Source: Bacteroidetes bacterium 2013_40CM_41_45 (GTDB lineage Bacteria; Bacteroidota; Bacteroidia; AKYH767-A; 2013-40CM-41-45). Taken from it: a stretch of DNA of 64,000 nt. The position numbers and the translations under genes were made by a program. The stretch covers positions 186,001 through 250,000 of the forward strand of contig NGFH01000005.1 in the NCBI GenBank assembly GCA_002215675.1, written 5' to 3'. Below the pieces are notes generated by a model. It saw only the letters and a program-made list of their open reading frames with translations, searched no databases and was not told where the DNA came from. This document shows, in pieces, positions 14,069 through 58,191 of the stretch. The stretch's first letter is position 1. Each line of letters opens with the position of its first letter.

Positions 14069-14073
14069 TTCCG

Positions 14074-14140
14074 TGCGGGCGGAGGGACTCGAACCCACAT
14101 GCCGTTAAGCGTCCCGATGTTTCAATCGGGATGCGTCTGC
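14074..14140 (-). pseudogene. Defective tRNA-Leu copy with the anticodon arm replaced by a palindrome
   Basis: Bases 14074-14111 match 14214-14251 of the intact tRNA-Leu (acceptor 3' strand, T arm, variable arm; 38 bp). Bases 14132-14140 match its D-arm segment at 14269-14277. Between them, the 17-bp anticodon arm of the real tRNA is replaced by TCCCGATGTTTCAATCGGGA (14112-14131), a 7-bp-stem palindrome. The 5' acceptor strand and most of the D arm are absent, so no functional tRNA can form. It lies 140 bp downstream of the real gene in the tRNA's reading direction. Confidence 0.85.
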
Positions 14141-14213
14141 ACTTTCTAATATATTATTATTGCGTTCAATTTTTGAATTTAAAGCGTATAGTTTTCCTGT
14201 CATTTTCTATTCG

Positions 14214-14295
14214 TGCGGGCGGAGGGACTCGAACCCACATGCCGTTAAGCGCCAGATTCTAAGTCTGGTGCGTCTGCCAGTTTCGCCACGCCCGC
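14214..14295 (-). tRNA. tRNA-Leu (UAG anticodon)
   Basis: Reading the - strand, GCGGGCG pairs with CGCCCGC in the acceptor stem, followed by discriminator A. The anticodon stem CCAGA/TCTGG holds loop CTTAGAA, giving anticodon TAG (reads CUA). A class II variable arm (CGCTTAACGGCATG) and a T arm with GTTCGAGTC are present. CCA is not encoded. It is 82 bases long and has a defective partial copy 3' of it. Confidence 0.95.
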
Positions 14296-45880: not shown

Positions 45881-45894
45881 CTACAAATTTTTAG

Positions 45895-46098
45895 TAGCGG
45901 GGGTAAGATTCGAACTTACGTCCGTCAACTGACGGATATGAGCCGAAAAAAACCATAATTTAAAAATACCGAAGCCGCTTTCATCGGTTCTTTTTGTAGC
46001 GGGGGTAAGATTCGAACTTACGTCCGTCAACTAACGGATATGAGCCGAAAAAAACCATAATTTAAAAATACCGAAGCCGCTTTCATCGGTTCTTTTTG
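45895..46098 (-). repeat. Two 102-bp tandem repeats carrying defective initiator-tRNA 3' halves
   Basis: Copies begin at 45895 and 45997, and the intact tRNA at 46099 continues the 102-bp period. Each copy keeps 26 bp of acceptor and T-arm (e.g. 45997-46022) and the eight bases TATGAGCC that include the CAT anticodon. Between them, the 10 bp of 3' anticodon stem and variable loop are replaced by a 16-bp palindrome: TCCGTCAACTGACGGA at 45921-45936 and the one-base variant TCCGTCAACTAACGGA at 46023-46038. The tRNA 5' half is absent. The rest of each unit includes a hairpin ACCGA...TCGGT before T-runs that may terminate transcription. Confidence 0.9.
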
Positions 46099-46171
<73 letters not shown>

Positions 46172-57747: not shown

Positions 57748-58103
57748 GCGGAGGAAGAGGGATTCGACCTCGTGCTCCGAAGCTTTAGCGAAGGAGCAAA
57801 ATTAGACGAGGTGCTTATTTCTGAAAGCAATTCCTGAACCTGATTTAAGGTATTTTTCAAAATCATATGCTTTGTATTTACTCATAAAAGCTAAATAGAG
57901 AATAAGTTCAACAGGCAGTTTATTTTGAGTTGATTCTACATATCCGCGGTTATGTCGTTCTAATCTTTGAGTTAATTCCTCTGTGCATCCGGTATAATAG
58001 CTTCCGTCTGCACATTTCAAAATATAGACATAATGCATATGAAAGAGCAGACCAAATTATATTTAAACCAAGACCTCCTTCGCTGAAGCTATGGAGGTTG
58101 AGA
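57748..58103 (-). mobile_element. tRNA-Ser-associated GIY-YIG mini-element
   Basis: A 20-bp direct repeat, GCGGAGGAAGAGGGATTCGA, lies at 58104-58123 (tRNA-Ser 3' end) and at 57748-57767. Between the two are a 24-bp palindrome at 57774-57797, the GIY-YIG gene, and a related 24-bp palindrome in opposite orientation at 58074-58097, about 19 of 24 bases matching. Next to the left palindrome, ACCTCGT (57767-57773) and ACGAGGT (57806-57812) form an outer stem whose right arm is the coding end of the nuclease. I infer an integrated mini-element whose insertion point is the T loop of the tRNA. Confidence 0.7.
57802..58038 (-). CDS. GIY-YIG nuclease family protein
   Basis: This 78-residue protein is a complete GIY-YIG domain with YVYILK (3-8), YYTGCT (14-19), Arg25/Arg28 in QRLERH, and the metal-binding glutamate Glu61 in YDFEKYLKSGSG. 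It is the small single-domain type annotated as homing-endonuclease-like or UvrC-N-like. It lies just 3' of tRNA-Ser between inverted palindromes, and its last codons (HLV, stop) take part in a predicted stem. No DNA-binding extension is present, so target choice must come from the small domain or a partner. Confidence 0.9.
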   Translation of the reverse strand: MHYVYILKCADGSYYTGCTEELTQRLERHNRGYVESTQNKLPVELILYLAFMSKYKAYDFEKYLKSGSGIAFRNKHLV

Positions 58104-58104
58104 G

Positions 58105-58191
58105 CGGAGGAAGAGGGATTCGAACCCCCGGACCCCGCGAAGGGTCAACAGTTTTCAAGACTGCCGCAATCGACCGCTCTGCCATTCCTCC
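58105..58191 (-). tRNA. tRNA-Ser (UGA anticodon)
   Basis: On the - strand: GGAGGAA/TTCCTCC acceptor, anticodon loop CTTGAAA (TGA), a long class II variable arm (TGACCCTTCGCGGGGTC), T arm GGGGG TTCGAAT CCCTC, discriminator G. It is 87 bases long with no encoded CCA. Its last 20 bases (to 58104) are repeated 356 bp downstream at the far end of the GIY-YIG element. Confidence 0.95.

Follow-up and report, generated by a model that had tools for sequence, protein, structure and literature searches.

SegB of phages T4 and T6 cuts tRNA genes and clusters with them (PMC13096335). Like the element described here, SegB and its kin combine the GIY-YIG fold, an association with tRNA genes and the form of a small selfish gene. 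However, our element has two terminal hairpins, duplicates the tRNA 3′ end and uses many unrelated targets; its nuclease is a bare single catalytic domain without a separate DNA-binding domain, and it resides in bacterial chromosomes. SegB is a phage homing enzyme for which, to our knowledge, neither terminal hairpins nor a target duplication is known. It is the nearest described relative in behaviour. Fungal mitochondrial endonuclease elements, such as that of Allomyces atp6, are inserted at a gene end and carry a copy of that end. As those elements are generally understood, the donor supplies the new gene end there, whereas here the own end of each target is duplicated.

In the REP/RAYT and IS200/IS605 systems, short palindromes also flank one small nuclease gene, ORF-less derivatives occur, and the hairpins may be recognised as single strands. 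However, those systems use an HUH-tyrosine transposase and are not tRNA-specific, and IS200/IS605 makes no target duplication. Our element has no HUH-tyrosine TnpAREP, and with a GIY-YIG gene as its sole ORF it also stands apart from the known insertion-sequence families with DDE, HUH, serine or tyrosine transposases. Elements with a tRNA-targeting tyrosine integrase resemble it in their insertion at tRNA 3′ ends and in a direct repeat that keeps the tRNA whole. Nevertheless, the present element is 336 bp long, has no integrase and does not supply the tRNA end; in one locus (L031), different tRNA ends stand beside identical element ends. In addition, a survey of rRNA genes in Patescibacteria reported GIY-YIG genes in non-intron inserts that do not fit homing (PMC11270868). 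There too a GIY-YIG gene is inserted in a structural RNA gene, but the hosts are rRNA genes rather than tRNA or tmRNA 3′ ends; the two kinds of insert possibly reflect the same biology. The text of a GIY-YIG superfamily survey mentions neither palindromes nor COG2827 (PMC1564403). In the open-access library that we searched, we found no description of such elements, and the element matches no class of mobile DNA that we found described there.

The window is the whole analysed stretch of 64,000 nucleotides. The features of the locus, all positions being those of the window, are as follows.

57768-58103, minus strand: whole inserted element, 336 bp, from the repeat boundaries, which are alike in relatives
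58104-58191, minus strand: tRNA-Ser, anticodon TGA, the intact target (ARAGORN; Rfam tRNA, 55.4 bits)
58074-58097, minus strand: left hairpin P1, CCTCCATAGCTTCAGCGAAGGAGG (repeat search, fold, relatives)
57802-58038, minus strand: GIY-YIG nuclease gene, 78 aa, sole ORF of the element (Pfam, invariant residues, AlphaFold)
57773-57798, minus strand: right hairpin P2, TGCTCCTTCGCTAAAGCTTCGGAGCA, in the orientation opposite to P1 (repeat search, fold)
57748-57767, minus strand: 20-bp target-site duplication, copy of the tRNA-Ser 3′ end, TCGAATCCCTCTTCCTCCGC (exact repeat)
57767-57773: one arm of an extra stem (minus strand ACCTCGT reads ACGAGGT), the other arm lying at 57806-57812 (sequence, fold)

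On the minus strand, the order is thus tRNA-Ser(TGA) (58191-58104), six bases, P1, the ORF (58038-57802), P2 and TCGAATCCCTCTTCCTCCGC. The element was taken to begin right after the final tRNA nucleotide and to end just ahead of the 20-bp copy; element plus repeat come to 356 bp. The first-pass annotation had described a 356-bp insertion without integrase or transposase, in which a 20-bp direct repeat of the tRNA-Ser 3′ end encloses a 78-residue GIY-YIG gene and two related palindromes in opposite orientation. Each of these points was reproduced. The 20-bp direct repeat is exact (57748-57767 and 58104-58123, spacing 356), and its upstream copy is the last 20 nt of tRNA-Ser, from the T54/T55 border in the T loop to the last encoded nucleotide. 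Between 57500 and 58500, the only repeats found were this pair and an inverted pair (57775-57796 and 58075-58096, 86% complementary) corresponding to the palindromes. No integrase or transposase gene lies between the 20-bp repeats, and scans of the 336-bp element for sigma-70 promoters and terminators were negative. A group I or II intron was rejected, since the tRNA is complete upstream of the insert and Rfam gave no intron match. The stem ACCTCGT/ACGAGGT, which had also been pointed out, is present, and its fold as single-stranded DNA has a z of about −2.2 to −2.6. However, it was not seen in relatives inspected by eye; thus it looks locus-specific, and we rejected it as a general part of the element.

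The 78-aa ORF matches the GIY-YIG family of Pfam (PF01541, E = 6.5e-14) and carries the GIY and YIG tyrosines together with the active-site Arg and Glu, which places it in the GIY-YIG superfamily. Across 42 sequences, V4, Y5, L7, Y15, G17, R25, H29, F60, E61, Y63, K65 and F72 are invariant, and the catalytic residues are among them, including Y5, Y15, G17, R25, H29 and E61. In addition, the ORF is under strong purifying selection, with dN/dS near 0.1 or below in close pairs (for example 0.05/0.53, 0.050/0.746 and 0.067/0.572). The AlphaFold model has a mean pLDDT of 97.6, and its best fold matches among solved structures are UPF0213 proteins and Slx1. Slx1 is a GIY-YIG nuclease that prefers and cuts branched DNA. 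By analogy, this preference would fit a role of our nuclease on hairpins or on insertion joints. Plasmids and phages hold only distant homologs of the nuclease. As the only gene of the element, and judging by its conservation and modelled fold, the GIY-YIG protein probably catalyses the movement.

The terminal hairpins are inverted copies of one design. P1, which begins 6 nt past the tRNA-Ser end, is built of an outer stem, a GWA/GAA-type internal loop and a GC..GC inner stem, and the architecture is alike in relatives. As single-strand DNA, both hairpins fold better than shuffled sequences (z −2.8 for P1 and −2.55 for P2), and no Rfam family matches the palindromes. The two-stem core with the GWA/GAA-type internal loop occurs 107 times in 55 loci. 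At least four outer pairs are kept in 73 of the 107 hairpins against a shuffled mean of 19; the arms comprise 36 different sequences. Furthermore, the region past the RNA gene contains the reverse complement of the last six bases of that RNA in 15 of 61 loci, against 4.1 in permuted data, and none of 2000 permutations reached this value. In ten loci, a short loop and then a copy of that RNA end come after the six-base complement. Such target-matched ends could guide insertion or arise during it; because related loci are not independent, we rank this result as a lead.

To survey the distribution, the protein was used as a query against contigs from 84,980 genomes, which gave 80 loci; these lie in Bacteroidota, Patescibacteria and a small number of further phyla. 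With family-, order- and phylum-level searches added, 118 distinct loci were scored, many of them from metagenome assemblies. The loci are not independent, since the homologs were gathered by similarity to one protein. A tRNA or tmRNA gene lies within 500 bp upstream on the same strand in 68 of the 118 loci and on the opposite strand in 2, which agrees with the expectation that GIY-YIG ORFs of this type are linked to tRNA 3′ ends elsewhere. Rfam recovered tmRNAs missed by ARAGORN in L043, L050, L057, L058 and L067. The first-pass annotation had suggested a search for such elements at other tRNA ends in related Bacteroidota, and they do occur there, but the class also extends beyond Bacteroidota and beyond tRNA-Ser, and includes tmRNA.

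In the maximum-likelihood tree, which is based on 84 columns and has poorly resolved branches, the window protein and most 3′-end-linked loci fall in one clade of 74 proteins with support of 99/98. Such an RNA gene lies within 500 bp in about 59 of these members (tree labels plus Rfam rescues, counted by hand), and several of the others are truncated at contig edges. Switches of target recur along the tree, among Ser, Ala, Met, Asp, Glu, Thr, Leu, Asn, Gln, Lys, Pro and tmRNA. In addition, Bacteroidota and Patescibacteria are interleaved in this clade, which indicates horizontal spread. At one tRNA-Ser, two elements stand in tandem with a tRNA-end remnant after each (L025:1501-2120), and two GIY-YIG ORFs stand in tandem past a tRNA-Met (L128). 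Such arrangements would be expected if one site receives insertions more than once.

The last 30 nt of each RNA were compared with the 250 nt past its own ORF, and mismatched tRNA/downstream pairs served as control. At least 10 nt are shared in 22 of the 68 linked loci against 7.2% of mismatched pairs, and at least 14 nt in 16 of the 68 against 2.0%. The shared stretch usually stops at the last base of the tRNA (+0 to +3) and in most cases starts at T54/55 or at about nt 60. It measures 20 nt in the tRNA-Ser elements nearest to the window and 14-15 nt in several others. Linked loci without a repeat of at least 10 nt are old or belong to subtypes with very short repeats. In loci of the L037 type, a second P1 after the repeat can lengthen it, and these extra bases were not counted as tRNA. 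Some apparent downstream repeats at tRNA-Ser in relatives (L118) are neighbouring tRNA genes and were left uncounted.

The most informative locus, L031, is a contig of a Magasanikbacterium on which one element occurs twice, the copies being separated by about 970 bp. Each copy is exactly 361 bp; the two are 92.5% identical, and their first 154 bp are identical. They adjoin two tRNA-Ser genes with unlike 3′ ends, TCTATCTCTCCGCC and CCCTCCCTCTCCGCC. Behind copy 1 stands TCATATCTCTCC, which is the end of its own target in worn form, and behind copy 2 stands CCCTCCCTCTCCGCC. Because each copy precedes a copy of the 3′ end of its own tRNA, the repeat is a target-site duplication. Thus, the target is duplicated and the element brings no tRNA sequence, which is evidence against integrase-type insertion and against plain homing.

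For the site in the window, the flanking FAD-dependent gene gave no useful synteny within the window's family. The empty-site test was therefore made on L119, a relative that has the same arrangement with an exact 20-bp repeat and, beyond it, an asparaginase-like gene. Occupied and empty flanks were compared pairwise and at the protein level. In L160 (same genus as L119), L149, L150 and L152, tRNA-Ser(GGA) lies directly before an equally oriented counterpart of this gene, whose protein is 57-60% identical over about 190 residues (score 544-593; control, 39). At these four loci, the element is absent and no match to the tRNA end longer than 7 nt was found within 600 bp. Thus, as anticipated, syntenic tRNA-Ser loci without the ORF are also without the duplicated end. 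Neither P1 nor the ORF accompanies most tRNA-Ser(TGA) genes in the family to which the window belongs.

The L031 pair, the target-matched repeats and these empty sites uphold the early proposal of a mobile element at the tRNA 3′ end. Together they present what characterises a transposable element, namely fixed ends, more than one site and a duplication matching each target. Mobility with target duplication is well supported by these sequence comparisons.

The genome of the window has 68 tRNA genes. In 11 of them, 14-30 nt of the 3′ end recur no more than 450 nt downstream, and every one of these repeats stops exactly at the final base of the tRNA; the upstream control gave 0 and mismatched pairs 0.3%. 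Most have a hairpin directly before the repeat. A chance origin of the repeats is ruled out by the matched-pair and upstream controls. A GIY-YIG gene is enclosed in three of the 11, at Ser (window), Pro (L003/L234) and Arg (L004/L227); the other eight contain no ORF. At Met, Leu, Thr, Trp and Val, the copy is a partial tRNA of greater length, with a hairpin in place of the anticodon arm. The Pro insert has the right end ...CAGCA/TTCGA, which recurs in the ORF-less inserts at Arg(TCT), Val and, as ...CTGCA/TTCGA, Gly. These four inserts (L003/L234, L202, L215 and L223) have target repeats of 21-22 bp. Judging by the common right-end hairpin, they look as a family of autonomous and non-autonomous copies would.

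All three tRNA genes of the window are among the 11. Downstream of tRNA-Met (46098-46171, minus strand) is a tandem array of 2.3 copies with a period of 102 and no ORF (45894-46171). Its unit consists of a 75-bp spacer ending in the hairpin TCCGTTAGTTGACGGA and a 27-nt copy of the tRNA 3′ end, present twice (45996-46022 and 45894-45920). Downstream of tRNA-Leu (14213-14295, minus strand) is a second partial tRNA copy at about 14073-14140, in which the hairpin TCCCGATTGAAACATCGGGA replaces the anticodon arm and more than 30 nt of the 3′ end are exact. Thus, the eight ORF-less cases and the Met array show that hairpins with tRNA-end repeats are possible without a nuclease gene in cis. At the tRNA-Ser of relatives, ORF-less inserts of about 120-160 bp were also seen (L109, L114, L157, L170, L171 and L173). 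They have 3′-end repeats of 13-17 bp (AATCCC... in most), and in several the flank past the repeat is duplicated as well.

The insert in the window is probably a minimal, hairpin-ended transposable element that is mobilised by its own GIY-YIG nuclease at tRNA and tmRNA 3′ ends. Points that weigh against this reading are the ORF-less cases with the Met array, the modest share of linked loci that keep a repeat of at least 10 nt (22 of 68), the non-independence of the loci and the many metagenome assemblies among them. We infer that the nuclease moves the element by a staggered cut, with joining by host repair. The nuclease, probably structure-specific by its fold, would recognise the hairpin ends. 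On one strand, it would cut within the T arm (past T54 in the clade of the window, at about nt 60 in others), and on the other strand just past the last encoded tRNA nucleotide. The hairpin-ended element would be joined at the cut, and gap filling by host repair would leave 14-21 bp duplicated. Afterwards, the downstream copy would decay while the upstream tRNA remains complete; the insertion would therefore be harmless or neutral.

The best surviving alternative, which we nevertheless regard as unlikely, is a free-standing homing endonuclease gene that cuts empty alleles of the same tRNA and spreads by recombination of the flanks, the tRNA-end repeat having been captured once and then inherited. 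GIY-YIG homing endonucleases exist, tRNA genes are cut by phage SegB, which also clusters with them (PMC13096335), and the element sits in a gene that it must spare. Homing could still account for spread within a species, but it does not carry an element to another tRNA gene and create there a new copy of the end of that gene, which is what L031 shows. Spread by flank homology would be limited to cognate alleles, whereas members of one clade are found at many RNA genes and, in L031, at two targets in one genome. The many isoacceptor and tmRNA targets in one clade and the paired terminal hairpins are also left unaccounted for.

Much less probable is that the hairpins are REP-like repeats with some other mode of spread, that the tRNA-end repeats are local tandem duplications, and that the GIY-YIG gene is a domesticated or incidental neighbour. 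The eight ORF-less cases in the same genome, one of them a clean tandem array, and the replacement of the anticodon arm by a hairpin in some second partial tRNA copies would suit this idea. However, a whole nuclease clade is found at RNA 3′ ends in many phyla, L031 presents a 361-bp unit with fixed ends, and the ORF-less Arg, Gly and Val inserts share the right-end hairpin of the GIY-YIG-bearing Pro insert, as in non-autonomous derivatives. We give equally little credence to a tyrosine integrase acting in trans, with the nuclease as passenger and the repeat as att core (T arm plus acceptor end). The stretch from the T loop to the tRNA 3′ end is the classic att position of tRNA-targeting integrases, but the element has no integrase gene. 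An integrase-inserted element would also bring the tRNA 3′ end with it, but in L031 the same left end borders two unlike tRNA ends. In addition, the repeats of some subtypes measure 14-15 bp and start elsewhere, and the supposed passenger is strongly conserved.

Beside the 3′-end elements, another GIY-YIG lineage shows a mirror-image arrangement. In Patescibacteria, it lies within about 10 bp before the tRNA 5′ end (L080, L081, L077 and L076), and the tRNA 5′ copies measure at least 36 nt in L080, L081 and L077. In L119, it lies upstream of the tRNA-Ser, with the intact tRNA on one side and a 20-nt copy of the tRNA 5′ end on the other. In addition, GIY-YIG genes of a different clade (L134, L137, L143 and L147) are flanked by dispersed palindromes of the TGTCACCCTGAGC..GTCGAAGG type and are not at tRNAs. 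They are possibly a GIY-YIG counterpart of REP/RAYT.

Returning to the transposable element with its own nuclease, on balance we lean towards an undescribed autonomous class. Its sole mobility enzyme would be a GIY-YIG protein of 75-85 residues; it would have hairpin ends, some of them target-matched, insert into tRNA and tmRNA genes of Patescibacteria and Bacteroidota with a target duplication that repairs the gene, and include ORF-less derivatives and a mirror-image 5′ form. If the nuclease drives the movement, these elements would rank with the smallest autonomous mobile elements, and we know of no earlier example that moves by a GIY-YIG enzyme alone. Here, a parasite exploits the essential and universally conserved sequence of a tRNA as its target and leaves the host unharmed. 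This would account for orphan GIY-YIG genes and for repeats of tRNA ends for which annotation offers no explanation, and it bears on the unexplained GIY-YIG insertions in the rRNA genes of Patescibacteria.
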